Assembly: GCA_947630825.1 (NCBI GenBank)
Contig: CANRJA010000010.1
Coordinates: 1-64,000, forward strand
Source: an uncultured Clostridia bacterium
Lineage (GTDB): Bacteria; Bacillota; Clostridia; Oscillospirales; Ruminococcaceae
Length of the DNA stretch: 64,000 bases
Reading direction: 5' to 3'
Shown in pieces: positions 28,742 through 45,247 of this stretch (position 1 is the stretch's first letter; each line of letters starts with the position of its first letter). A program made the translations under genes and the position numbers. The notes beneath the pieces were generated by a model, which was not told where the DNA came from, ran no database searches, and worked only from the letters and a program-made list of their open reading frames with translations.

Positions 28742-30004
28742 ATGATTACAAAAACAGCACCTATGGGCTGGAACAGCTGGGACTGTTACGGCACCTCTGT
28801 TACTGAGGAAATTGTAAAACAAAATGCCGACTTTATGGCAAAGCATTTGAAAAAATACGGCTGGGAATACATTGTAATTGACGCCCAATGGTTTGAACCT
28901 AAGGCTACAACACATAGCTATAATCAGTTTACCGAGCTTTGTATGGATGAATATTCAAGACTTATTCCCACAGAAAACCGTTTTCCGTCTTCAAAAGGAG
29001 GCAAGGGCTTTGCTCCTTTAGTAGAATATATTCATTCGCTTGGTCTTAAATTCGGAATACATATTATGAGAGGAATTCCTCGTCAGGCTGTTCACAGAAA
29101 CACCAAAATAAAAGGCTCTGACAAAACTGCCCGTCAGATTGCAAAAACCTCAAGCATTTGTAAATGGAACACCGATATGTACGGAGTTGACCCGTCTAAG
29201 GACGGCGCAAAGGAATATTACGATAGCATTTTTGAGCTATATGCTTCATGGGGCGTTGATTTTATCAAATGCGACGATATTGCCCGTGAGCTTCCGCACG
29301 AGGAGGAAGAGCTTTTAATGATCAGTGATTCCATTCATAACTGCGGACGGAATATGATATTTAGTATCTCGCCTGGTCCGGCACTTCTTGAAAAAGCCGA
29401 GCTTTACAAGCAAGTATCAAATATGTGGAGAATTACCGACGATTTCTGGGACGATTGGGAGCTTCTTTACGATATGTTTTCACGTGCCGAAAAATGGTGT
29501 ACACACGCAGGAGCAGGTCACTGGCCTGATGCAGATATGCTGCCGATTGGTCCTATCAAACAAGACTATGATAAGTCGATCCGCACCAACTTCGCTCGCA
29601 GCGAGCAAATTACAATGATGACTCTGTGGAGCATACTTCGTTCTCCTCTTATTATCGGCGGAGAGATGACCGGCTTTGATGATTTTACAATGGGTCTTGT
29701 TACCAATGAAGGAATTCTTGAAATGCACAGGAATGCACGTCATTCTCATCAGGTGTGGCGAAAGGAAATTGACGGCATTGAACATATTCTATGGATGGCT
29801 GTAAGTTCACAAGGCGGCATATACATAGCTGTATTTAATACCGGCAGTGCTGACAGCGAAATTGAAATACCTCTTACCGACCTTGAGATTTATGACAAGA
29901 TATTCGGAACAGAGCTTTGGAGCGGAAAAGATATTTCCGCAAAAGACAGCTTAAAAATTGCACTTGAAAGTCACGGGGCAAAGGCATACTTATTAAAGTC
30001 ATAA
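28742..30004 (+). CDS. GH27-like alpha-galactosidase
   Basis: TAPMGWNSWDCYGTSVTEEIVKQNADFMA, YIVIDAQWFEP, WGVDFIKCDDI, HWPDADMLPIG, SPLIIGGEM. Confidence 0.88.
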   Translation: MITKTAPMGWNSWDCYGTSVTEEIVKQNADFMAKHLKKYGWEYIVIDAQWFEPKATTHSYNQFTELCMDEYSRLIPTENRFPSSKGGKGFAPLVEYIHSLGLKFGIHIMRGIPRQAVHRNTKIKGSDKTARQIAKTSSICKWNTDMYGVDPSKDGAKEYYDSIFELYASWGVDFIKCDDIARELPHEEEELLMISDSIHNCGRNMIFSISPGPALLEKAELYKQVSNMWRITDDFWDDWELLYDMFSRAEKWCTHAGAGHWPDADMLPIGPIKQDYDKSIRTNFARSEQITMMTLWSILRSPLIIGGEMTGFDDFTMGLVTNEGILEMHRNARHSHQVWRKEIDGIEHILWMAVSSQGGIYIAVFNTGSADSEIEIPLTDLEIYDKIFGTELWSGKDISAKDSLKIALESHGAKAYLLKS

Positions 30005-30849: not shown

Positions 30850-31107
30850 ATGGCGGTTCCAGAGATACTGTCTTATGTCAATGCTATCAAACGTAAACGC
30901 TATTTTCATAAATTGATATTTTATTTTGTATATGCAATTTTCAATACCGGCGATAAAAACAGCGAAATCGAAATACCACTTTCCGACCTTGAGATTTACG
31001 ACAAGATATTCGGAACAGAGCTTTGGAGCAGAAAAGAAGTATCCGCAGAAAACACTTTGAAAGTCAAGCTCGAAAGCCATGGAGCTAAAGCGTATTTTTT
31101 TAAATAA
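30850..31107 (+). pseudogene. Truncated duplicate of the GH27 C-terminus
   Basis: FNTGDKNSEIEIPLSDLEIYDKIFGTELWSRKEVSAENTLKVKLESHGAKAYFFK vs FNTGSADSEIEIPLTDLEIYDKIFGTELWSGKDISAKDSLKIALESHGAKAYLLKS in the CDS at 28742-30004. Confidence 0.85.
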
Positions 31108-31265: not shown

Positions 31266-31730
31266 TTATTTTTTTACATCTAATGTGCTGAAATACTTTT
31301 CATCTAAATTCTTTGCGGCGAGCTCTACTAGCTCAACGCAAGGTCTTTTTTTATAGTAACCGTCAGTTCTCAACTCCGGCACAGGATTATCCGCTCCCTT
31401 TTGAGACAGACCCAAAAGCTCCCTGCATATTATTGAGCCGTTTTGCTGTCTAAACTTCTCAGCGAGTTCCTGAACGTTTTTATAGTGTTCGGCTTTGGCC
31501 TTGTTATCCCTTGCGTCATAACCGCCCTCTAACATTCCAAGCGCCATAAACGAACCTGTCAATGCACCGCAAACCTCTCTCATTCTACCCATTCCACCGC
31601 CGAATGACGACGAGATTTTAACAGCGGTATCAAAGTCAATACCAAGCTCTTCGGCGAACGCGCCAAAAACCGCCTGAGAACAATTATACCCGCTTTTAAA
31701 AAGCTCTACAGCTTTTTTCGAGTGGTCCAT
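31266..31730 (-). CDS. C_GCAxxG_C_C family (putative redox-active) protein
   Basis: GYNCSQAVFGAFAEELG, VCGALTGSFMALGM, CRELLG, RPCVELVELAA motif series. Confidence 0.88.
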   Translation of the reverse strand: MDHSKKAVELFKSGYNCSQAVFGAFAEELGIDFDTAVKISSSFGGGMGRMREVCGALTGSFMALGMLEGGYDARDNKAKAEHYKNVQELAEKFRQQNGSIICRELLGLSQKGADNPVPELRTDGYYKKRPCVELVELAAKNLDEKYFSTLDVKK

Positions 31731-31875
31731 ATAGTATCCCCCTTCAAAACATTTTGATATTATGCATTATAATATATTATATACTTTGAAAGAGGAAAAG
31801 TAAACTTTGTTTTTTGCTAACATTTATGCCTATCACCAATATGCTTAATTTAAGAGATTAATATAATCAGAAAAT

Positions 31876-32571
31876 CTACTTAGTTTTTTTCGATACATAT
31901 TTTGAATAATCGCCTTCGACCTTTACTCCGTAATTAATTGTAATAGCTTTTACTCTCACATAATAATTAGATTTCCTTTTCAAGCCCTTTACCATAACTG
32001 AATTTTTATCACTTGAAACAGTTTCGTAACTTACATTATTATTACCCTTTTTATTAGCAGAAACCTTTACCCTGTATTTAGTTGCACCGGGAATCTTCTT
32101 CCAAGTAATTTTAAAGCCTTTTTTTATTGCCCTTACCTTTGTAATTTTTACTCTTGACGGTTTAGTCATAGAAACTACCACCGGTTTTGCAGAGGTTGTT
32201 GAGGGCGGTGCAGCTGAAACCTGTGTAGTTGTTGTCTGACTTGTCATAACAGCATTTTTTGCCTCAAAGTTTTTTGTTTTATTTATATTACTGCTCGTTA
32301 TAACAAAGCATACTACAAGCACAACTGCTATAACTCCTCCGCAAATGCCGCAAATCATTCCTACCTTTTTTCCCTTCGGGTTTGGTTCACCGCTTTCGCC
32401 GAATACGAATTCATCATCATCCATATGAGAATCTTCATAACTATCATTAAACTGATCTTCAACAGAAGATTTTAGTTCGCCGCCACAATACGGACATACA
32501 TCATAGTCTTTATCCAGCGGTCTTCTGCAATATTGACAAGACTTAACTGTTTTTTGATCTACATATCTCAT
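31876..32571 (-). CDS. Zinc-ribbon / single-TM / extracellular Fn3-like domain protein
   Basis: N-terminal CQYCRRPLDKDYDVCPYCG, TM MICGICGGVIAVVLVVCFVI, Thr-rich linker, FKITWKKIPGATKYRVKVSANKKG...YYVRVKAI. Confidence 0.75.
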   Translation of the reverse strand: MRYVDQKTVKSCQYCRRPLDKDYDVCPYCGGELKSSVEDQFNDSYEDSHMDDDEFVFGESGEPNPKGKKVGMICGICGGVIAVVLVVCFVITSSNINKTKNFEAKNAVMTSQTTTTQVSAAPPSTTSAKPVVVSMTKPSRVKITKVRAIKKGFKITWKKIPGATKYRVKVSANKKGNNNVSYETVSSDKNSVMVKGLKRKSNYYVRVKAITINYGVKVEGDYSKYVSKKTK

Positions 32572-32588
32572 TTTGTTTTTCTCCTATC

Positions 32589-35387
32589 CTATTTTATAGT
32601 TTTGTAATTCAAATAAATACACTTTACATCCTTAAAGTTCTTTTCTTTCATACCTTTAAGTTCATATATTTCAATACGATAATTACCCTTTTTCTTTATT
32701 TGATAAAACTTTTTAAATTTCTTTTTTCCATTACCCTTCATATAATCTTGCTTTACTTTAAGACTTATTTCTTTATTCTTTTTGTTGTATATTTTAATTC
32801 TATACTTACATCCGCCTCTTCTGGAAAATTTAATTATAATTTTTTTCTTTTTAATCTTAACTTTAGTTTTATTGCGAGAATTTATAATTTTTACTATCTT
32901 TTCATTTTTTTTATTATTTTTACTAGTGTCTTTTGATGTTGTAACATTTGAACCGCTTTGTGTTAATACTTTTTGACCGCATAATTGGCAGATGCCATCA
33001 TTTTTATATTTGTGTGCAGAAGGATTCTTATCAATTATTACAATCTCTTTTTCATCACACCTTTTACAAGTTATTTCTCCTTCTCCTCCTGCTATACATG
33101 TTGGCTCTTTTGTTACTTGTAAAGTCCAATCCCAATCGTGTCCTATTGCAGGAATTACCTCAGTATATGTATCATTACAGGTTTCACAAGTGAATGTCTT
33201 GATACCATCTGCTGTACAGGTTGCTTCTTTAGTAATTATTCCATCATTGTAATTGTGTCCTGTTGCAGGAATTACCTCTGTATATTTGCTTCCGCAATTT
33301 GCATTCTGACAAGTAAATGTCTTTAATCCGTCAGATGTACAGGTTGCTTCCTTAGTTACTTCGCCTTGATTGTAGTTATGTCCCTTTGCCGGAACAAATG
33401 TCCTTGCCTCAAGAACCTTACCGCATACTGAACAGTATTTACCGCCGGACCAACCTGAATCTGTACATGTCGCTGCAACATCATCATAAGCTGTTGCAAC
33501 CTTTGCATTGTACTCTGTATCTAAGTGGCTCTTAATTTGGGTAACTATGTCAGCATCAGTTGCCTCGTTGAGATATATAGTCTCAGGCAGTGTTGTATTA
33601 ACATTCTTAAGTGTTATGCTTCCTACATTGTTATTAACATTATTGTTATCCAAATTTATGATACATACTGATAATGCAGTATATGAAGGAGCATCCGGAA
33701 CTGGATATAATAAATTATAACATACAGTGTATGTACCATCCTCAGGTATTTCTATTGCCGGATTTACAGCTTTGTTAGGAGCCAACATAGAGTTTCCAGA
33801 TTTTATGGTAAACTTCAAAAATGCTCTTGCTCCGCCTTCCGGAACACCGGTTACATCAAATGTTACATATAATGAATTTGTTTGTGCAAGGCTGGTAATT
33901 GGCATAGTACCAGTTACGAGTTTAAGCTCTCCATTATTACTTATTGTAGAGTTTCTCCAACTACCGATGTCAGGAAGTACCTCAGCAGGTGTTGTCAAAT
34001 AAGTTTCATCACAATTCTCTGAATCCTCTGTTGCTAAGAACAACTGTCCGCAATCACTACACTTATAGTGCTCTTTATTTCCTGTTGTGAGACAGGTTGC
34101 ATCTTTACTTTCAACAAATTCAATGTTCTTATGTCCTGTAGCTAAAATAACTAAATCATCATATTCAACTTCATGCTTATCTGTTGCATCAAAATACTTT
34201 TTACAAACCGAACATTGATAGTGTGCCTTTAATCCAGGTTCTGTACATGTTGCATCTTTTTGAGGAATAAGATCAGTATAATCATGATCTATTTTTTCAA
34301 GATTAGCTGCATCAGCATTAGCAATCTCTACATAAGGATCAATTGCATCTCCATTCTCATCAGTTGTACGGTAGAATTTGTTACATCTTGTACACATAAC
34401 CCAACCATAGTTTCCGTCTTCTGTACATGATGGAGCATTATATGCTGCACAGTTTACGCCTTCTTCAGTACCATATTCGTGACCAAGTGCAGGTGCAACA
34501 AAGTCATTTTCATCAATCACACCGTCTTCGTTTGTATCATCCGACTCTACAGTACATTCTGTATAATTATAATTGCCACTGTCGCCAGTTACCTTAGCAT
34601 AAGCGCCACATTTAGTACATGTTGTATAAGATGTACTAATGCCACTATCTTCACAAGTTGCTGCTTTTACAGCTACTATGCCAGCTTCATTCCAAGTGTG
34701 ATTGCCATTCGGATCAAGCTTATCGATTTTTAAAGCGTCTTCGCTTTCAACTTCTTCATACTCATAGTCAGGATCTTCTCCTGTAACCTTTGCATAAGTT
34801 TGACATACTGAACATTGAGCGAAAGCCTCTTTACCTTCTTTTGTGCAAGTTGCAGGTACCTTAGGAGTTACCTCACCCCATGTATGAGGAATTTTAGGAA
34901 TAACTAAATCATCAGGATTAACGTCATCACCGTTTAGAGTTAATTCTTCATAAGTATTTACGCCATCCTCGTCTGTGCTTATAATTTTATAATACTTATT
35001 ACATTCACTACATTGGATATAAGCATATATTCCTGTTGCAGTACATGTAGGATCTGTGCGAGTGCCCTTCAAATTATCATAAACATGTGCATTCTCATCC
35101 GATGCAACGATAATCTGATCCTTAACCTTTTCATATGTAGCCGGAGTTTCAAGATCTACGCCGTTAATTGAAATTACGCAGTTACAATCCTTACACAATA
35201 CATATGCCTTTCCACCAGATTTTTTACAAGTTGGATTATTAGCTTCTATATGTACTAATTTATCATCTGGATGCGTGCAATAGGTATTCTCACCATTATT
35301 CGCACTTACAAAAAATAATCCTGTCGTTTCAACTGCCGTAAAAGAAATAATTGTTGCTAAAATAATTGCTAAAACCCTTTTCACCAT
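32589..35387 (-). CDS. Large secreted Cys-rich tandem repeat protein
   Basis: Signal peptide; ~11-12 modules of the form ATCTxxGxxxxxxCxxCxxYxx...GHxW/Y; basic C-terminal beta domain. Confidence 0.75.
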   Translation of the reverse strand: MVKRVLAIILATIISFTAVETTGLFFVSANNGENTYCTHPDDKLVHIEANNPTCKKSGGKAYVLCKDCNCVISINGVDLETPATYEKVKDQIIVASDENAHVYDNLKGTRTDPTCTATGIYAYIQCSECNKYYKIISTDEDGVNTYEELTLNGDDVNPDDLVIPKIPHTWGEVTPKVPATCTKEGKEAFAQCSVCQTYAKVTGEDPDYEYEEVESEDALKIDKLDPNGNHTWNEAGIVAVKAATCEDSGISTSYTTCTKCGAYAKVTGDSGNYNYTECTVESDDTNEDGVIDENDFVAPALGHEYGTEEGVNCAAYNAPSCTEDGNYGWVMCTRCNKFYRTTDENGDAIDPYVEIANADAANLEKIDHDYTDLIPQKDATCTEPGLKAHYQCSVCKKYFDATDKHEVEYDDLVILATGHKNIEFVESKDATCLTTGNKEHYKCSDCGQLFLATEDSENCDETYLTTPAEVLPDIGSWRNSTISNNGELKLVTGTMPITSLAQTNSLYVTFDVTGVPEGGARAFLKFTIKSGNSMLAPNKAVNPAIEIPEDGTYTVCYNLLYPVPDAPSYTALSVCIINLDNNNVNNNVGSITLKNVNTTLPETIYLNEATDADIVTQIKSHLDTEYNAKVATAYDDVAATCTDSGWSGGKYCSVCGKVLEARTFVPAKGHNYNQGEVTKEATCTSDGLKTFTCQNANCGSKYTEVIPATGHNYNDGIITKEATCTADGIKTFTCETCNDTYTEVIPAIGHDWDWTLQVTKEPTCIAGGEGEITCKRCDEKEIVIIDKNPSAHKYKNDGICQLCGQKVLTQSGSNVTTSKDTSKNNKKNEKIVKIINSRNKTKVKIKKKKIIIKFSRRGGCKYRIKIYNKKNKEISLKVKQDYMKGNGKKKFKKFYQIKKKGNYRIEIYELKGMKEKNFKDVKCIYLNYKTIK

Positions 35388-35389
35388 TC

Positions 35390-36655
35390 TTAATACCTCT
35401 CTAATTCAATAAATTTTTTTGATATCCATCCGTATTGACCATTGTAGTATGTTAAATAAAATTGTCCGCTTGTGTTGTATATCGGAAGTCCATACTCGTC
35501 ATATGGAATCTGATCAAGTTCTTTTGAAGAATATGATGGAGAATCCCTAAGTATCAAATATGAATCGCTGTCTATATCAACCACATATCCCGAATATGAA
35601 CTGTACTTCAATTTAATTAGACATCTTGATGATATCCATCCGTTAAGAGTCGGAAAATACACCCATTTAGTACCTTTAACGCTTTTATAAGCCGACGCTG
35701 TATAGCTGTCGCCCACAGATACAGCGGTTTCGGCATAATAGCTTGTACCCGGTCCCCGCCTTACGTTAATTTCGGTTTCTCCCGTCATATATACCAAATA
35801 GTCGCTGGAATCGTTAGAATAGCTCGGTGTTATGTACTCCATATTATATTTCTCAAGCGTGCTTATGGAAGCTGATGACGGACTGCTCGCCAAAGTCGTA
35901 TCTGTTGCTTTAACTCGCTGATAGAAGGTATATTCTCTTCCGGGCTTTAAATTAGTAAAGTTGGTACTAGCCTGCCAGCTATTTCCGTTGATCGAATACT
36001 CGCACCCATCTACATTCTGAAGGGTTATTGAAGTTTTTGTTCTGCTAACGTCTACAGGCTCTGCCGGAGGATTTGCAGGCTGCATTATTATAACTTTGGT
36101 TGCCTGAGACTGCGGGGATTTGTACCGTACAAAATATGTATTCGGAGACAGTCCCGTTATCTCATTTGAAGTAATCTGCAAATATGAATTTCCTCCGTCA
36201 GCACTGTACTCCATTGTGTTATCCACGTTTTGAATTTTTCCGTCGTCAGCGCCGTTATAAGTACAGTTTACACCTTTAACTACAGGACCGCTGTTTTGAA
36301 CTGCAGGTTCGGAAATCAATATTTCCGTATCTTGACTCATGAAATTGCTGTCAGTCTTTTTGTATCTGACATAATACTTTCCTGCTTTAAGTCCTGTTAT
36401 TATGTCGGTTGTTATTTCAATATACGATTCAGAGCCTTCTGGCTTGTACTCCATTGAACTGTTTACTCCCGTTATCTGACCGTCAGCAGCTCCCTGTTTT
36501 GAGCAGTCAATACCTGCCACTCCCTCAGGGGCATCGGGTAATACACTGTAATCACACCCCGAAAATAATGAAATGCATATTATTATTAATAAACTTACGA
36601 CCTTTTTCATAATGTCCACTCCTTTACTCCCAACCATTATCTTTCGATTTGTCAT
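35390..36655 (-). CDS. Lipoprotein with two internal ~80-aa repeats and C-terminal SH3b domains (likely start 36610)
   Basis: Lipobox LFSGC; GxxCxxxGAxDGxIxxVxxxMEYxxxGxxSYxxI repeated; INVRRGPGTSYYAETAVSVGDSYT SH3b. Confidence 0.75.
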   Translation of the reverse strand: MTNRKIMVGSKGVDIMKKVVSLLIIICISLFSGCDYSVLPDAPEGVAGIDCSKQGAADGQITGVNSSMEYKPEGSESYIEITTDIITGLKAGKYYVRYKKTDSNFMSQDTEILISEPAVQNSGPVVKGVNCTYNGADDGKIQNVDNTMEYSADGGNSYLQITSNEITGLSPNTYFVRYKSPQSQATKVIIMQPANPPAEPVDVSRTKTSITLQNVDGCEYSINGNSWQASTNFTNLKPGREYTFYQRVKATDTTLASSPSSASISTLEKYNMEYITPSYSNDSSDYLVYMTGETEINVRRGPGTSYYAETAVSVGDSYTASAYKSVKGTKWVYFPTLNGWISSRCLIKLKYSSYSGYVVDIDSDSYLILRDSPSYSSKELDQIPYDEYGLPIYNTSGQFYLTYYNGQYGWISKKFIELERY

Positions 36656-37229
36656 TGCTTGATTTACGAGAAGTATTTTTTATGCTATAATTCGCAGTTG
36701 GTGCTTGTGTAAATTGACTTCTAGTTTGTGTTGTTATGGGTATTTCAGTTACTGCTTTTGGCTCAGTTGCAATAGGATTTGCTGTAGATTTTGCGGTTGT
36801 TGCTCTCTGCTTTTTCTCATTCAAATTGCTTTTATGAATATATCCTATTTTACCCTTGTATTTTACTTTCCAAATTTTTTTGTTATTTTTGTTAAGCACG
36901 ATTACCTTTATAGGTTTTTTGCCATTTGGAGTAAACTCTTCTAAAACCCTACTGTTAGTATCTGCCTTTTCATACATTGCGACATACTCTTTTTCCGGAT
37001 TATATTTTATGTAATAAGGTTCATTTAAAGTTATCTCCACTGTCGTTTGACGAGTCGTAGTAACATTATTAACAGTAGTAGTTGTGATTGTAGATGACTC
37101 ACTTTCTACATAACTGTTATATTTTTCATCAATTTTATCAGCTATGCTTAAAGTTGTTTCTAATCCGCTTTTACATCCTGTAAGTATTGCAATACAAACT
37201 ATCATTGTTACACTTGCTAATCTTTTCAT
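36624..37229 (-). CDS. SH3-like domain lipoprotein
   Basis: Lipobox AILTGC; Thr-rich linker; YYIKYNPEKEYVAMYEKADTNSRVLEEFTPNGKKPIKVIVL...GYIHKSNL. Confidence 0.75.
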   Translation of the reverse strand: MKRLASVTMIVCIAILTGCKSGLETTLSIADKIDEKYNSYVESESSTITTTTVNNVTTTRQTTVEITLNEPYYIKYNPEKEYVAMYEKADTNSRVLEEFTPNGKKPIKVIVLNKNNKKIWKVKYKGKIGYIHKSNLNEKKQRATTAKSTANPIATEPKAVTEIPITTQTRSQFTQAPTANYSIKNTSRKSSNDKSKDNGWE

Positions 37230-37242
37230 TTAATTTACTCCT

Positions 37243-38217
37243 TTACTCCAAACCATTATCTTTTGAATTATCATTATTTGGTTTATCATAACTCGCTTGA
37301 GGTTTTGTATATGTAGTCATTTGATAAGCTCTTGTATTTTGTGCAGTTGTTTCAGACATTTCAGTAGTAGTGGTAGTTGTCATTGCCTTTTGTTCATCCT
37401 TAACTAAATTGTCTCTGTGAATATAGCCTGTCTTGCCTTTGTATTTAACCTTCCACAAATTAGTCTCATCTTTGCTTATCAATGTTACTTTTATTGCCTT
37501 TTTACCGTTAGGACTAAATCGAGTTATAACTTCACTGTCTGTATTTGGTTCTCTGTACATTGCAACATATTCTTTTTCTGAATTATATTTTATGTAATAC
37601 GGTTCATTTAGACTAATTTCAATTGTTGTATTTTGTTTTGTTGTTATCATAGTTGTTGAAGATGTTGTTTGAGTCTTTTTATTTGTAGCTTCAGAGACTT
37701 CTGCCAAATACTTTTTCACATCTCGTTTTCTTATATATTTATCTTTGAATTTCCCATCAATTATACGGAAATATTTGTTTTCATTATTAACTTCAGAAGT
37801 TTTGCTTATAGTTAATTTATCACCGTCTTTCAATTGTTTATCTTGCTTAAACTTTTCGCTTTTCTTAGTATATACATACAGCTTCTCGCCTTTTGGTAAC
37901 TTAACGATTATTTCATCTCCTCTTTGAATTGAATCGCTTATATTTTTACCCGTTGGTAAATTAGTTAAAAGTCTTGGAAAAGCTATTGCTCCGACTACAA
38001 CCACTACAAAAACAAAACATATAGGCAGTATTACCGCAATTAAAGAACCTTTCCTCTTCTTTGACAGCGGCGGTGTATTAGGGATTCTGTCTAATTTCGT
38101 ATAAAGAAGTTTTTCTATAAATTCAAAATCATTTTTATCTTCACCAATCGGATCTTCTCCGCATTTACAAAACTTTTTATTAAATTCAATACTTCTTCCA
38201 CAATTTTTGCAAAGCAT
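37243..38217 (-). CDS. Zinc-ribbon / single-TM / SH3-domain protein
   Basis: MLCKNCGRSIEFNKKFCKCGED; TM LIAVILPICFVFVVVVVGAIAF; two SH3-like modules. Confidence 0.75.
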   Translation of the reverse strand: MLCKNCGRSIEFNKKFCKCGEDPIGEDKNDFEFIEKLLYTKLDRIPNTPPLSKKRKGSLIAVILPICFVFVVVVVGAIAFPRLLTNLPTGKNISDSIQRGDEIIVKLPKGEKLYVYTKKSEKFKQDKQLKDGDKLTISKTSEVNNENKYFRIIDGKFKDKYIRKRDVKKYLAEVSEATNKKTQTTSSTTMITTKQNTTIEISLNEPYYIKYNSEKEYVAMYREPNTDSEVITRFSPNGKKAIKVTLISKDETNLWKVKYKGKTGYIHRDNLVKDEQKAMTTTTTTEMSETTAQNTRAYQMTTYTKPQASYDKPNNDNSKDNGLE

Positions 38218-38244
38218 ATTTTTACTCCTTTATTTTATGAATTA

Positions 38245-39312
38245 TCACTTATGTATTCCCATATTGATTTTTAAACCGCCGCTAACAGGCTTGTCCTTAA
38301 TTTCTTTTTCAGGCGATTTTTTTATAGGCACAAATCTAGGCGCCGCAGAATGAGAATTTATTTTTACTTTGGTCAAATCTTCAAATACCTCGTTAATTGA
38401 AATTCTTTGATCAGGATCTTTAATAAGCATTCTTTTTATAATTGATCTTATATCATACGGGATACTATTATCCAAAACAGGAGGTTCATCATTCAATACC
38501 GATTCATAAATATAATGATAGTCTGATGATATTTCCGGAGTTTTCCCGCACATATACTGATGAAAAATTATTCCCAATGCAAACACATCTATTTTTGTTG
38601 TAAGCTTTGCGTCTTTACCTATCATTCTCAAAAATGTTTCAGGAGCCAAATATACAAAATCGCCTTTTATATCTTCAGAGCTTTTTGGCGGTTCACTTTC
38701 AAAATAGCTGTCGCTTATATCTATTATCTTAGCTGTATATGTACCGCTAGCCGTCTTTTTTACTATTATGTTGTTTAATTTTAAATCTGCGTGAACTACT
38801 GACACATTGTTTAACCCTATCAAACAATGTGCAAGAACCTTTAACAGTATGATTTTATTTTCCATCGGCAAGCTTGAAATTATATCTAAGCTTATTCCCT
38901 CTTCTATCTTTTCTGTTACTTGGTAAAATTTGTTTCCAAATTTAAAAAATTGTTTTACTACAACTATGTTTCCGTTTGATACACTTGTTATTGCCTTAAA
39001 TAGTCTTTGTCTATCATCATACCACTGTTTACATATCTCTTTTTGCTTGTTTTTTATGCTCTCCGATATCTCCGAGCTGCTCGGAAATACAGGAGATAAA
39101 AATTCCTTTATAAAATACTCTTTACCATTTTTATTGGCAAATCCCCATCGGGAAAAGCCTGAATTCTTTGTAGTAAATCCCTGCTCTACTACATATCCGT
39201 TTATTTCTTCTCTTTTTCCGCTGAATATGCTGTCGTTTTTCTTTACTTTTTTGTTTTTTATTTTTGTTTCAGTCATCTTCTTTTCAGAAGTAGACGGTAT
39301 ATATACTGGCAT
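38245..39312 (-). CDS. Atypical Ser/Thr protein kinase
   Basis: EYFIKEF (catalytic Lys), VVHADLKLNNIIVKK (HRD->HAD with D/K/N), KIIDISDSYF (DFG->DIS), YLAPETFL, KIDVFALGIIFHQYMCG, DPDQRISINEVFEDL. Confidence 0.88.
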   Translation of the reverse strand: MPVYIPSTSEKKMTETKIKNKKVKKNDSIFSGKREEINGYVVEQGFTTKNSGFSRWGFANKNGKEYFIKEFLSPVFPSSSEISESIKNKQKEICKQWYDDRQRLFKAITSVSNGNIVVVKQFFKFGNKFYQVTEKIEEGISLDIISSLPMENKIILLKVLAHCLIGLNNVSVVHADLKLNNIIVKKTASGTYTAKIIDISDSYFESEPPKSSEDIKGDFVYLAPETFLRMIGKDAKLTTKIDVFALGIIFHQYMCGKTPEISSDYHYIYESVLNDEPPVLDNSIPYDIRSIIKRMLIKDPDQRISINEVFEDLTKVKINSHSAAPRFVPIKKSPEKEIKDKPVSGGLKINMGIHK

Positions 39313-39334
39313 TTTTCAATTCACCTGATTTTCA

Positions 39335-40306
39335 TTAGTTACTATAATAATTTATCTTATATTTCTCCCACAGCTCGTATTTAATATCATCTATGTTCTC
39401 ATCATTCATAATTCTTATATAATTCTCATAAATATATCTTTCTCTATCCATAAAATACGATTTCATAGATTTAAACGAACCAAATCCTGTAGCTATAATT
39501 CCGAATGTAAAGTCGTCTGCTGTAAAAGTATTTATATAATCTCTTATCTTTTCTTCAAATTCCATTATGTTTTCCGATGAGCATATTGAATCCAAAATAA
39601 CATATTCAAAATGCATAGGTGTAGGAAAATACCCAAAACAACCGTCTGTTGCTGAAATAAATAGTGACGGTTTATTTACTTTTACCAATTTAAAATGAAT
39701 ATCAAAATCTACATCTAAATTAATTACATTGCTCATCGAGGCATCGCTTGAGATGTTACTCATTGCGTCCTGATCTCCGTTTAAATCATCCTCTGTAACC
39801 TGTCTTAAACCACTTGAATCCAATATGTAGCCTCTTGAATCTCCAACCCACAAAAATTCGCTGTTGATATGACCGTTTTGACAACTTACTGATATTATTG
39901 AGGCAGTCGTGGGGAAGCTTTTGCTTGCCAAGCTTCCCCTGAGCTCTGAACCTCTATTAAGACATTTATTGTTTATTTCATCAAGCGCTTTGCAATATTC
40001 ATATTTTAATTTTTTACAATCGCTTATATCAAAATCAAACGAACCGCTGTTTTCATAGTATTCCAATGTTTTATAGGCGCAGATCCTTGATGCAAGATAA
40101 GCGCCTGTATATGTTTCAGTGGTTTCAGCGTCTATTTTATATCTTTTTGCACCAATTCCTCCGCAGCCGTCAAAAACGGCTATAAACGCATTATTGTTTT
40201 GACATTCTCTAGGATATGAGTATGAAAAGTAGTCTTCCCCCATACCTTCTTTTTTTTCCTCACTGTAAACATCTACTATGTTAAAATATTCACTTAATTC
40301 GTACAC
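39335..40306 (-). CDS. PP2C-like Ser/Thr protein phosphatase
   Basis: FIAVFDGCGGIGAKRY, WVGDSRGYILDSSGLRQVTEDD, LFISATDGCFGYF, DDFTFGIIATGF. Confidence 0.82.
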   Translation of the reverse strand: MYELSEYFNIVDVYSEEKKEGMGEDYFSYSYPRECQNNNAFIAVFDGCGGIGAKRYKIDAETTETYTGAYLASRICAYKTLEYYENSGSFDFDISDCKKLKYEYCKALDEINNKCLNRGSELRGSLASKSFPTTASIISVSCQNGHINSEFLWVGDSRGYILDSSGLRQVTEDDLNGDQDAMSNISSDASMSNVINLDVDFDIHFKLVKVNKPSLFISATDGCFGYFPTPMHFEYVILDSICSSENIMEFEEKIRDYINTFTADDFTFGIIATGFGSFKSMKSYFMDRERYIYENYIRIMNDENIDDIKYELWEKYKINYYSN

Positions 40307-40402
40307 AATAAATACCTCCGAATTTATTTACCGTTATATAACTGTTATTAAGTATGTTTTGATATAAGTAATTAAACTAATGATAAATAATTCAATTTAA
40401 AA

Positions 40403-41089
40403 TTATATGCTGTTTGCTATTGCGTCAATGATTGTAGAATAGTCGTAATCATTTAATCCCTCTCCTGCCTGAGATGGAAAATGTATTACATTCTCCCAGT
40501 TATCTGATATTGTGTTCCAATAAGGCGCGTCCGGAGCAAAAAGCAGCAATCTCTTTTCTGAAAAGCCTACATATCCATTAAGCTGTGCGTTTCCCCACCA
40601 GGAGGTAAGCTCATTGAAATCCTTTGCCATATTTTTAGGATAGTTCGGGGCTTCAGCGCCATAACCAAGATTATGAGTCGACGCATCCGTCCAAACTACA
40701 ATAACCTCCCTTTTCTTTATTCCCTCAGTATCCCAAGGTGAACGAATTGCATAGCCTAGAGCTTCAAGACCGTCCTCAGGCTCGTCTCCTCCGCCCTCTG
40801 CTGCTATTGAATTTATGGTATTACTGAATTCTTCAATCTGGTCAGGCAACACGAAAAAATCTGTTTCCATCATCGCGTCATCGCCGTCAGCCAGATAATC
40901 TCTGAACGAAATAACTCTCACTCTAAGTTTATTTATCATTTTTGACTTTGCCGCCATTGCAGCCATAACATCTTCAAAAAAGTGCAGAGCATTGTCCTTA
41001 ACCATGTCTATAACAGGTACCATACTTGCCGTTGAATCAATGCACAATACTAAATCGATATTATATGTGATCTGATAATTTTCTGCCAT
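40403..41089 (-). CDS. von Willebrand factor A (vWA) domain protein, TerY-like
   Basis: MIDAS DLVLCIDSTASM; GGGDEPEDGLEALGYAI; EVIVVWTDAS. Confidence 0.88.
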   Translation of the reverse strand: MAENYQITYNIDLVLCIDSTASMVPVIDMVKDNALHFFEDVMAAMAAKSKMINKLRVRVISFRDYLADGDDAMMETDFFVLPDQIEEFSNTINSIAAEGGGDEPEDGLEALGYAIRSPWDTEGIKKREVIVVWTDASTHNLGYGAEAPNYPKNMAKDFNELTSWWGNAQLNGYVGFSEKRLLLFAPDAPYWNTISDNWENVIHFPSQAGEGLNDYDYSTIIDAIANSI

Positions 41090-41168
41090 AATAATCCTCC
41101 TGATATTTTTAGACTAAGATAAATCTAATAATTCTTTGATAAAAGCTGTATAAATCGTAAAGCCTTTA

Positions 41169-42269
41169 TTAATCCAAATCCTTTGCTTTTTTAAAGCTTC
41201 CGGTGCTGCGTGAAGTTGTTCCAGCCGGATAACTTCTGTGCGGATCTCCCGCAGCTTTTCCTGTTGGAGTATATCTGTGAGATTTAGTGGTATCTTTTAT
41301 GACACCGCTTCCCGAAATTGTCGTTGTTGTTCTCGAACTATAATCAACTTCCACAGGACGTTTCCACGACGCTCCTGACCTTGAACCTGAAACACCAACA
41401 GGTGTTTTCATTGCTTCCTGTCTTAGCTTGAACAAAGAAATTGCAAATAGAATATACGCTGTGCACTCACAGCCTAACGCTAATGCCAACGCCGGTGAAG
41501 GAACTAACATCAATAAAGCAGACAATCCGAACAAACAACCGTATATATACAGCATAACTCCGACAAAGGTCGGGATTTCTACAAGGTTGTTATTGTATTT
41601 TATAGAATTTATAAGAGACATCAAAGTATTTATAACATAGATTCCGAATATTAAATGCAGCACCAGATATCCGAGTACGAATAATGTTAATAATATCATC
41701 GGTCCCTGAAAGGCACTCGGGATATTCGGTATAAACATAATAGCGTAAATTAATACCACTAAAACTGACAGCCCGTCAAGAACTGTTTTTATAATTTCAA
41801 CAACTCTTATACCAATTAAAGCATTGATTTTTAATTCCGATTTTGAGAACCTTGCATAAAAGCAATATATCATTCCAAATACGCAAATTATAATTGCAGG
41901 TAGATTTGATATAAGAATTGCTGAAATTGAATAATTTACAATGCTTGATAATATTGCCTCTGACAAATCAGATAAGCCAAAAATCTCATTTGCCAATTCA
42001 TTTTGAAAAATACTCGTAGCTGAATTAACCATAAACATTACGCCAAGAAGCTGTAATAAAATATTTGCTGCATAAAATATCACAGCTGCTATTGAAACAT
42101 TTGATTGCGCACATCTTTTTATAGTTTCAATCAAAGGCGAATGTTTAACTCTCTTATGTTCACTATCATAACCGTCTGGTATAAAACTAGTCGGTCTGTC
42201 AAATCCGCAAACTCTGCATCTCACCTCCTCTTCTCTATTTTTGGTTTCACAATGATTGCATTTCCACAT
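41169..42269 (-). CDS. RanBP2-type zinc-finger multi-TM protein
   Basis: N-terminal WKCNHCETKNREEEVRCRVCGF; about six hydrophobic segments; basic Ser/Thr-rich C-terminus. Confidence 0.75.
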   Translation of the reverse strand: MWKCNHCETKNREEEVRCRVCGFDRPTSFIPDGYDSEHKRVKHSPLIETIKRCAQSNVSIAAVIFYAANILLQLLGVMFMVNSATSIFQNELANEIFGLSDLSEAILSSIVNYSISAILISNLPAIIICVFGMIYCFYARFSKSELKINALIGIRVVEIIKTVLDGLSVLVVLIYAIMFIPNIPSAFQGPMILLTLFVLGYLVLHLIFGIYVINTLMSLINSIKYNNNLVEIPTFVGVMLYIYGCLFGLSALLMLVPSPALALALGCECTAYILFAISLFKLRQEAMKTPVGVSGSRSGASWKRPVEVDYSSRTTTTISGSGVIKDTTKSHRYTPTGKAAGDPHRSYPAGTTSRSTGSFKKAKDLD

Positions 42270-42427
42270 ATGAATACGCTTCCTTTCTATTTTTAATCAT
42301 CAATAAATGATTGATTTTTAAACTTTTTTTAACCTGATTTTTTTGTTGTCCACTTTCCGCAGTACATTTTATTGCTAACTATTTTATAAGCTCTTACACT
42401 AAATTAAATCCTCATAAAATACGCTGG

Positions 42428-43108
42428 CTAATATTCTTCAATAACCACCATTTCTGTTTTCTTCTTTGTTTGCGGTTTTACATACGTAGTATACGTTTGA
42501 TAGGCTCTTGTATTTTGTGCTGTTGTTTCAGGTTGTTCTGTGGTTGTAGTTGTTGCTTTAGTCGCTTTCTGCTTGCTTTTTACTAAATTATCCTTGTGAA
42601 TATATCCTGTCTTGCCTTTGTATTTAACCTTCCACAAATTAGCGTCATCTTTGCTTATCAATGTTACTTTTATCGCCTTTTTACCGTTAGGACTAAACCG
42701 CGTTATAACTTCACTGTCTGTATTGGGTTCTCTGTACATTGCAACATATTCTTTTTCTGAATTATATTTTATGTAATACAGTTCGTTCAGAATAATTTCA
42801 ATTGTTGTATTTTGCGTCGTTGTTGTTGTGTTTGTGCTAACTGCATTACCAGTTGTGCTGACTGGATTGGGTGTTTCTGTATGCCTGTAAGTAAAAACTG
42901 TCGCTAAGCAAATAGCTCCGATAATTAGTGCTGATACCAAAATAATTATTACGTTTATTAAAGGTCTTGTACTTTTTACAGATTTGCTTTTTATATCAGC
43001 TGTTTCGGTTTCAATAACAACCTCGTCTCCATCAAATGCATTATCACATACCGGACAAACACTTACATTATCTTCGACTTCAGTTTCACAAATTTTACAT
43101 ATCTTCAT
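42428..43108 (-). CDS. Zinc-ribbon / single-TM / SH3-domain protein (paralogue of 37243-38217)
   Basis: MKICKICETEVEDNVSVCPVCDNAF; TM VIIILVSALIIGAICLATVF; SH3 almost identical to 37243-38217. Confidence 0.78.
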   Translation of the reverse strand: MKICKICETEVEDNVSVCPVCDNAFDGDEVVIETETADIKSKSVKSTRPLINVIIILVSALIIGAICLATVFTYRHTETPNPVSTTGNAVSTNTTTTTQNTTIEIILNELYYIKYNSEKEYVAMYREPNTDSEVITRFSPNGKKAIKVTLISKDDANLWKVKYKGKTGYIHKDNLVKSKQKATKATTTTTEQPETTAQNTRAYQTYTTYVKPQTKKKTEMVVIEEY

Positions 43109-43129
43109 ATAAACCTCTGAATTTAATTA

Positions 43130-44335
43130 TTATATTGAAAGACTCAATATCTTACTGTACTTTCCGAATATCTTTTTGCCTTTTTTCTTTTTATAAGCCC
43201 TTACTTTAATGTAATACTTATTGCTGTAAAGGTTTTTTAAAGCGACCCGCTTCTTCTTGGTAAGCTTTTTAACAGCATAGATAAAGCTTTTATTTGTAGC
43301 TACTTTTACTTGATATCCCTTAGCGCCTTTGACCTTCTTCCACGAAATGCGTGCTGTCCTTCTTCCGATTTTTGTTATTTTCAATCCCTTGACCTTTGCT
43401 GGCTTTTTAGCGGAAGACTTCTTCTTTGAAGTCGACTTCTTTGACTTGCTTGACGATGACGACTTCTTAGATGTGCTCTGCGGATTGAATTTTAGTACGT
43501 ATTTGCAGTCGTTAGAATAATCCCTGCTTATTCTTACATAATATGTACCCTTATTTAAGACGCTTGTAACTTTTAATGTCTCATTTGAATAGCTTGTATC
43601 GTCCCAGCCAATATCTATTTTATTTAAGTTGTTGTCATACAATGTAAAATCTGTACTGCTATCATAAGACGTTAGGTAGAAACTGTATACAGTCATTTTG
43701 CTTACATTAATTTTATAGTAATCATACTCATCATACTTTAGTTTTGTTATAGTACCGATAATTGTTGAACCATTACTTACAGACTGAGCTTGTAAATATG
43801 TGTCGTTAGGCTCTATTTCATTTGAACCTGCAGATGCAAAGCTGGCTTTTACTCTGTAGCTTGCTTGCGTGACCGACCAATAATCTTCTGAAACTCTAAT
43901 ATAATAAGTACCTTTTTCCAACCAGCTTGTAAAAGTACCATTTTTAGGATCTCCGCCGCTGCCATATAAACCGTAATCATCTATAGTATTGTAATCACTG
44001 TCTAATATCTCAAAATATAAATCCCCGAAAGATTGCATATCAATAGTTAATTTTCCTGTTGCTGAAGTATATATAGGATGATAGTCATATTCATTTATAT
44101 CTTCATAATATCCTATATAGCCATCTCTCCAAATTCCATTAGTAGCAAGAGCCGAGTAGTCATTTCTAATATCATCTGCACCTGCCGGCACAACCCCTGC
44201 CAATCCTCCAAGCATAATCAGCGTTAAAATCATACTGAATATTTTTTTCTTCATTTGTTTTCCTCCTATAAAAATAAGTTTTTTTAATGTAATTTTACTA
44301 AAAATATAAATTAATAGTACATATTGTAAAACCAT
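43130..44335 (-). CDS. Secreted protein with pre-peptidase C-terminal-like domains and basic Fn3-like C-terminus (likely start 44254)
   Basis: Signal peptide; EIEPNDTYLQAQSVSNGSTIIGTI...DYYKINVSK PPC signature; ARISWKKVKGAKGYQVKVATNKSF. Confidence 0.78.
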   Translation of the reverse strand: MVLQYVLLIYIFSKITLKKLIFIGGKQMKKKIFSMILTLIMLGGLAGVVPAGADDIRNDYSALATNGIWRDGYIGYYEDINEYDYHPIYTSATGKLTIDMQSFGDLYFEILDSDYNTIDDYGLYGSGGDPKNGTFTSWLEKGTYYIRVSEDYWSVTQASYRVKASFASAGSNEIEPNDTYLQAQSVSNGSTIIGTITKLKYDEYDYYKINVSKMTVYSFYLTSYDSSTDFTLYDNNLNKIDIGWDDTSYSNETLKVTSVLNKGTYYVRISRDYSNDCKYVLKFNPQSTSKKSSSSSKSKKSTSKKKSSAKKPAKVKGLKITKIGRRTARISWKKVKGAKGYQVKVATNKSFIYAVKKLTKKKRVALKNLYSNKYYIKVRAYKKKKGKKIFGKYSKILSLSI

Positions 44336-44470
44336 AAATAATTATAAAGTAATTTGGCTTATATTGTCAATACTAAATTTGTTAAATTTCATAATTTTTA
44401 CTTGAAATTATAAAAATTTCATTATTACTTGTAAAAAACAACTTTTCTGGTTATAATAATTACAAACAAT

Positions 44471-45247
44471 TTGAAAGAAGGACTTTCTATGAAAACCGCA
44501 CTTGTAACAGGAGCCAGTTCTGGAATAGGTTATGAAATGGCACGAGTTTTAAGCCACTTAGGATACGAGCTTATTCTGGTTGCTCGCCGTGAAAGCAGAC
44601 TTTTGAAACTTCAAAAGCTGCTAGAAACACGCTCTGAAATAATTACCTGCGACTTATCTAAAGAGGAAGAGTGCAAGGAACTATATAAAAAGGTCAAGGA
44701 AAAGGATATCTCTGTGCTTATTAATAACGCAGGCTTTGGTCTATGCGGAGACTTTACAGAAACTGACTTAGATAAAGAGCTTTCTATGATAAACGTAAAT
44801 ATTAAGGCTGTTCATATTCTTACAAAGCTGTTTTTAAAAGATTTTGTCAAGAAGGACGACGGTTATATTTTAAATGTCGCGTCATCGGCAGGACTGATGG
44901 CAGGCGGTCCTCTTATGGCGACTTACTACGCGACAAAAGGATATGTAGTGGATTTGACCCGTGCAATCAACACAGAGCTTGCCGATATGGGAAGTAACGT
45001 ATATATAGGCGCACTCTGCCCCGGACCTGTTGATACTGAATTCAGCAAGGTTGCCGACGTAAAATTTGAGATGAAAGGAATAGACAAAAAATACTGTGCA
45101 AAATATGCTCTTTACAATATGTTTGAAAACCGTAAAATGATTATTGTTCCAACCGCCGGTATGAAACTTTCGGTATGCGCTTCTAAATTTGTGCCAACTC
45201 GACCGCTTCTTGAAATAACAAGACAAATTCAAAAAAGGAAACGATGA
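44471..45247 (+). CDS. Short-chain dehydrogenase/reductase
   Basis: ALVTGASSGIGYEMARVL, INNAGFG, YYATKGYV (YxxxK), LCPGPVDTEF. Confidence 0.92.
   Translation: MKEGLSMKTALVTGASSGIGYEMARVLSHLGYELILVARRESRLLKLQKLLETRSEIITCDLSKEEECKELYKKVKEKDISVLINNAGFGLCGDFTETDLDKELSMINVNIKAVHILTKLFLKDFVKKDDGYILNVASSAGLMAGGPLMATYYATKGYVVDLTRAINTELADMGSNVYIGALCPGPVDTEFSKVADVKFEMKGIDKKYCAKYALYNMFENRKMIIVPTAGMKLSVCASKFVPTRPLLEITRQIQKRKR

Follow-up and report, generated by a model that had tools for sequence, protein, structure and literature searches.

A patchily distributed kinase-PP2C-vWA gene block with predicted zinc-ribbon membrane partners in Clostridia

Eleven consecutive genes on the minus strand of the window (the whole stretch of 64,000 nucleotides of Clostridia DNA that was analysed) are best read as a conserved, mobile, membrane-linked kinase-PP2C-vWA system, a variant of the kinase-PP2C-vWA kind. 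We consider it somewhat more probable than its contrary that the block is one mobile operon for a membrane-spanning Ser/Thr-phosphorylation circuit running from the envelope to the cytosol. In the literature that we found, kinase-PP2C-vWA triads are tied to tellurite, restriction and conflict loci, and no paper describing the present gene set was encountered (subscription papers, including a 2012 Ter paper, were outside the scope of the search). In the present case a triad of this make-up is mobile, is wired to the envelope by zinc-ribbon membrane proteins of many different kinds, and bears a candidate docking label. The features of the locus are as follows.

31266-31730, minus strand: flanking C_GCAxxG_C_C-type gene
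31731..44423, no strand: extent of the insertion; flanks adjacent in four congeners
31876..32571, minus strand: zinc ribbon, one TM, Fn3 protein, 231 aa
32589..35387, minus strand: secreted Cys-rich repeat protein, 932 aa, no Pfam match
35390..36610, minus strand: SH3/Fn3 lipoprotein; ORF opens at 36655
36624..37229, minus strand: SH3 lipoprotein, 201 aa, paralogue of the SH3 part of both zinc-ribbon/SH3 proteins
37243..38217, minus strand: zinc ribbon (CxxC...CxC), one TM, SH3 protein, 324 aa
38245..39312, minus strand: Ser/Thr kinase with catalytic K, HxDxKxxN and D; tail ...GLKINMGIHK
39335..40306, minus strand: PP2C-type phosphatase
40403..41089, minus strand: vWA protein, predicted integrin beta-I-like fold, MIDAS DxTxS kept
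41169..42269, minus strand: RanBP2-type zinc finger and about six TM, 366 aa; C-terminus ...SFKKAKDLD, a shared docking-like motif
42428..43108, minus strand: zinc ribbon, one TM, extracellular SH3 protein, 226 aa
43130..44254, minus strand: secreted PPC and Fn3 protein; ORF opens at 44335
44341..44370, minus strand: sigma-70-type promoter match, perfect TTGACA-18-TATAAT, 5' of the first gene
44489-45247, plus strand: flanking SDR gene

All eleven genes were present where the initial annotation had placed them, and its domain calls could be supported. The kinase gave a Pkinase match of 7e-22, the vWA protein a VWA_4 match of 4e-9 and the PPC protein a domain match of 5e-11; the SH3, Fn3 and zinc-ribbon calls all stand. 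The Pfam match of the PP2C protein was weak (0.018) and its predicted fold was clear: the AlphaFold model (pLDDT 82, pTM 0.86) was matched by Foldseek to bacterial PP2C phosphatase structures with E ~1e-10, and the metal-binding Asp is conserved. The vWA model (pLDDT 87) resembles integrin beta-I domains and retains the MIDAS, and the kinase keeps its catalytic residues. Two translation starts should be moved. The signal peptide of the PPC protein begins at 44254, which suggests that this position, and not 44335, is the start; likewise, for the 421-aa lipoprotein the lipobox suggests 36610, where the signal peptide begins, as the probable start in place of 36655. No terminator match was found between the genes, all minus-strand terminator-like matches within the block being located inside genes. 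Transcription of the eleven genes as a single transcript is inferred, in the absence of expression data. The GC content of the block is 0.34, versus 0.37 elsewhere.

The eleven genes fill a 12.7-kb insertion, whose boundaries lie close to those proposed initially. In four congeners (G014, G005, G012 and G002) about 170-215 bases separate the SDR gene from the C_GCAxxG_C_C-type gene, leaving an empty site. Alignment revealed that window positions 31731-44423 are absent from G014 and that a nearly equal stretch is absent from G005, G012 and G002. The vWA gene was found in one of 14 congeners, and in the carrier G010 the block occupies the identical site, its triad proteins sharing about 95-96% identity with those of the window. 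The block was inserted as one unit. In the region 30850-31107, outside the block, the last part of a short ORF resembles the C-terminus of the 28742-30004 protein and has the look of a partial duplicate.

At the equivalent site, G007 (L045, L046) carries a different block of about 22 kb, with Tad-pilus, FHA, PP2C, kinase, macro-domain and integrase genes, and G004 (L044) carries a gene for a lipoprotein-like SGNH-type hydrolase. Judged from these genome comparisons, the site (window 31731-44488) is an insertion hotspot. Such varied occupancy, together with the fact that the two carriers of the genus differ in the repeat gene and in one secreted gene, is also what would be seen if the triad and the surface genes were passive cargo, merely co-inserted at a hotspot and without any joint function. 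We hold this to be quite improbable, since the association repeats in many unrelated contexts (Clostridia, Treponema, Herpetosiphon) and a tail motif, described below, is common to the kinases and their neighbours. In the sister island an additional 633-aa secreted protein is encoded (L009:6870-8771) and a different repeat protein replaces the 932-aa one (L009:15831-18254). The SH3 parts of the 37243-38217 and 42428-43108 proteins share about 87% DNA identity, and at the protein level the SH3 of the 324-aa protein looks nearer to its 226-aa paralogue than to the corresponding L009 protein, a pattern that suggests gene conversion of ectodomains.

The initial annotation would have been refuted by the lack of a conserved neighbourhood in other genomes. 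The neighbourhood proved to be conserved: the vWA-PP2C-kinase triad was present in 27 out of 28 neighbourhoods (Clostridia and one Treponema), and in all 27 complete loci the three genes were close and co-oriented. A scan of genome contigs revealed nine loci in which the three genes lie near one another, one of them in Treponema. In the order, the vWA profile matched 7 of 396 genomes and the PP2C profile the same seven plus one more weakly; at the class level 16 of 388 genomes were matched by the vWA profile (two of the 16 by weak partial matches), and in a sample of the phylum a strong match was obtained in the window genome only. On the Herpetosiphon plasmid pHAU01, genes for vWA, PP2C and kinase precede an 82-aa zinc-finger-TM ORF missing from the gene table of the record, while a Calothrix plasmid has the order vWA-kinase-PP2C. 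An unannotated, phage-labelled fecal contig marked UNVERIFIED contains PP2C-kinase-vWA near an integrase-like ORF; phage carriage of the triad rests on this single contig. As far as can be told from these searches, the triad block is mobile and patchily distributed. Divergence was correlated among the triad proteins of the 27 complete loci (Mantel r 0.85-0.90), a correlation that could stem in part from a common history of the organisms.

The membrane partners of the triad are recognisable by their zinc ribbons. A same-strand gene for an N-terminal zinc-ribbon protein was found at most 5 kb from the triad in 26 of 28 loci. Zinc-ribbon genes were far more frequent near the triad than in the background (62/195 within 3 kb versus 4/152 beyond 5 kb; P=1.1e-13, OR 17; 28 loci), as the proposed co-occurrence of the triad with zinc-ribbon/TM genes demands; the loci were pooled and are phylogenetically non-independent. 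A TM segment was predicted, by a simple hydropathy scan, in 58 of the 65 zinc-ribbon proteins near the triad. By charge, the N-terminus was assigned to the inside in 46 cases and to the outside in three, with nine ties (46/49 informative), and the zinc ribbons are thus predicted to face inside. The Pfam domains of these proteins and their neighbours include SH3, Fn3, TPR, NPCBM and lipocalin-like domains. Secreted genes and ectodomains vary among loci; SH3 ectodomains are special to the genus of the window, and other loci bear other ectodomains. Within the genus, the SH3 and RanBP2-TM genes are not distributed apart from the triad: full-length matches were obtained only in the two triad carriers, and in G002 and G005, which have no triad, matches were weak and limited to the N-terminal zinc-ribbon/TM part. 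Membrane proteins of the TcaA/YvbJ type consist of a cytosolic N-terminal zinc ribbon, one TM and an extracellular domain, an architecture similar to that of the present proteins; the TcaA/YvbJ genes are not known to be encoded with a kinase-PP2C-vWA triad.

The TerY-P triad comprises the vWA protein TerY, a PP2C and a Ser/Thr kinase with a C-terminal zinc ribbon (Anantharaman 2012, as cited in PMC11090510). The same three protein classes are adjacent here and zinc ribbons are present, and the TerY-P criterion of vWA, PP2C and kinase genes occurring together is met by the 27 complete, co-oriented loci. However, the zinc ribbons belong to distinct membrane proteins and not to the kinase, which has no C-terminal zinc ribbon or OB fold (no Pfam match, no CxxC pairs in the tail). 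The TerY and TerY-C proteins of R478 were not matched by the vWA profile at E<=10, and hhalign aligned the window vWA family with TerY at a probability of 15%. The R478 PP2C gave no profile match and a weak hhalign alignment, and the R478 kinase a weak profile match. Membership in TerY-P was rejected on these profile and hhalign results, and the system remains an architectural cousin. A search for TerY_C in 249 genomes gave no control match and so carries no weight. GAP1-N2 GTPase systems, reported from actinobacteria with a GTPase and GAP1, also have a kinase next to a PP2C and a standalone vWA, with zinc ribbons, TM and SH3-type domains (PMC7159879). No GTPase or GAP1 domain was found in the window operon, and that report lacks the membrane partners and the tail motif found here.

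It had also been stated that no TerD, FHA or secretion genes are seen at the locus. For TerD, this holds for the window genome but not for one divergent relative: of the 21 triad genomes, G739 alone has TerD, encoded on the strand of its triad and several kb further downstream. Similarly, no FHA is present in the window, but FHA-subtilase proteins adjoin the triad in L010 and L012. As for secretion genes, the block contains no T6SS gene. The T6SS threonine phosphorylation pathway is formed by PpkA, PppA and Fha. The present loci resemble it in having a kinase, a PP2C and a vWA, with FHA in some relatives, but differ in that the vWA is a separate gene, unfused to the kinase, and in the lack of T6SS genes in the block.

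In some relatives the triad is paired with FHA-subtilase, TIR-kinase, CHAT or toxin genes, which points to conflict and not to wall signalling, and counts against the envelope circuit. In the divergent relative G739 the triad lies in a run with SUKH, GHH-type toxin, TraG-like ATPase, M48, transglutaminase and TerD genes, and in G689, also divergent, it is accompanied by TerY_C-like, transglutaminase, CHAT and T4SS-coupling genes. The edge of the family therefore touches the Ter/conflict world, while close relatives mostly have zinc-ribbon membrane proteins. Together with the mobile, patchy distribution and a make-up like that of TerY-P (PMC11090510), these neighbours would suit a TerY-P-like conflict or anti-phage module, whose triad is a phospho-switch over toxic or protective effectors and whose envelope proteins are membrane effectors. 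We regard such a module as unlikely, though by no means excluded: the window operon contains no toxin, nuclease or TerD gene and no specific match to a defence model (with PADLOC models, the vWA and PP2C proteins had no match up to E=10 and the kinase general kinase matches only), its partners are secreted and of wall type, and in most close relatives the triad is accompanied by zinc-ribbon/TM proteins rather than effectors.

Many of the kinases have F-x-x-A-x-D-L at the C-terminus, ending in WFxxAGDL or a variant of it. When a matrix trained on the kinase tails of other loci was applied (leave-one-locus-out scoring), scores of at least 6 were reached by 23 of 206 same-strand neighbours and by none of the 187 proteins that were distant or on the opposite strand. 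The motif itself was recognised only on inspection of the sequences, with held-out loci used for the scoring, and here too the loci were pooled and are phylogenetically non-independent. The neighbours with the motif span 16 loci and include the 366-aa protein of the window, which alone in the window operon has AxDL; the window kinase lacks it. None of 41 single-TM zinc-ribbon proteins had an AxDL tail, versus 10 of 20 with no TM or an even number. Being absent from C-termini predicted to lie outside and present on predicted cytosolic ones, the tail fits action in the cytosol. GFxDIL was found right after the ribbon in 13 of 65 zinc-ribbon proteins versus 0 of 1120 other ORFs, often on the protein just ahead of vWA; the single-span zinc-ribbon proteins of the window have no clear GFxDIL. 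On the predicted topologies, the shared motif was located almost only on cytosolic ends.

Known C-terminal degrons are short C-terminal motifs, and AxDL, likewise short and C-terminal, could be a degron or processing signal and not a docking label, even if the envelope circuit is right. We consider the idea very improbable, as AxDL marks the kinases of one locus type together with their partners and was seen on 0/187 distant or opposite-strand proteins, and no protease was a constant partner in the neighbourhoods read.

In the envelope circuit that we favour, SH3, Fn3 or PPC domains outside the cell would contact the wall or a ligand, and the inner zinc-ribbon ends of the membrane proteins would pass the signal to a cytosolic complex of the kinase and the PP2C phosphatase assembled on the vWA protein. 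Short acidic-aromatic peptides (the C-terminal F-x-x-A-x-D-L and the GFxDIL after the zinc ribbon) may tether the cytosolic components to a common receptor, for which the integrin-like metal site of vWA is the simplest candidate, and the kinase and phosphatase would set the phosphorylation state of local or distant targets. Wall sensing, the signal, the docking receptor, and the substrates and their phosphorylation are all inferred, with no expression, phosphorylation or binding data. Physical docking of the zinc ribbons with the triad, put forward by the initial annotation, is likewise an inference; it gains backing because a C-terminal motif, which had escaped that annotation, is shared. A bolder version is offered only tentatively and may well be wrong: an intracellular peptide address code, in which F-x-x-A-x-D-L and GFxDIL on the kinase and membrane partners would be recognised by the vWA metal site, so that interchangeable receptors would assemble on a single core of kinase and phosphatase. 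The role of vWA in such triads is an open question, which the label makes directly testable by peptide binding.

Other tail features were observed. A second motif, LK-x-(T/N)-M-(R/K/G), is often found ahead of the AxDL end (L025, L026, L028 and L029), and the window kinase ends GLKINMGIHK; the motif is enriched near triads, more weakly than AxDL and with some chance matches. In L010:8917-9907 the kinase gene is present as two overlapping ORFs, and the tail EFFFRAGEDDL is in the second, which indicates a frameshift or an assembly error. In G739 (L036/L048) the kinase and a 191-aa zinc-ribbon protein share another, longer C-terminal region (WPE..I.FD ... GVKGY ... QF.R..M..I.KLAK), which looks, from its sequence, as if it were another docking domain.
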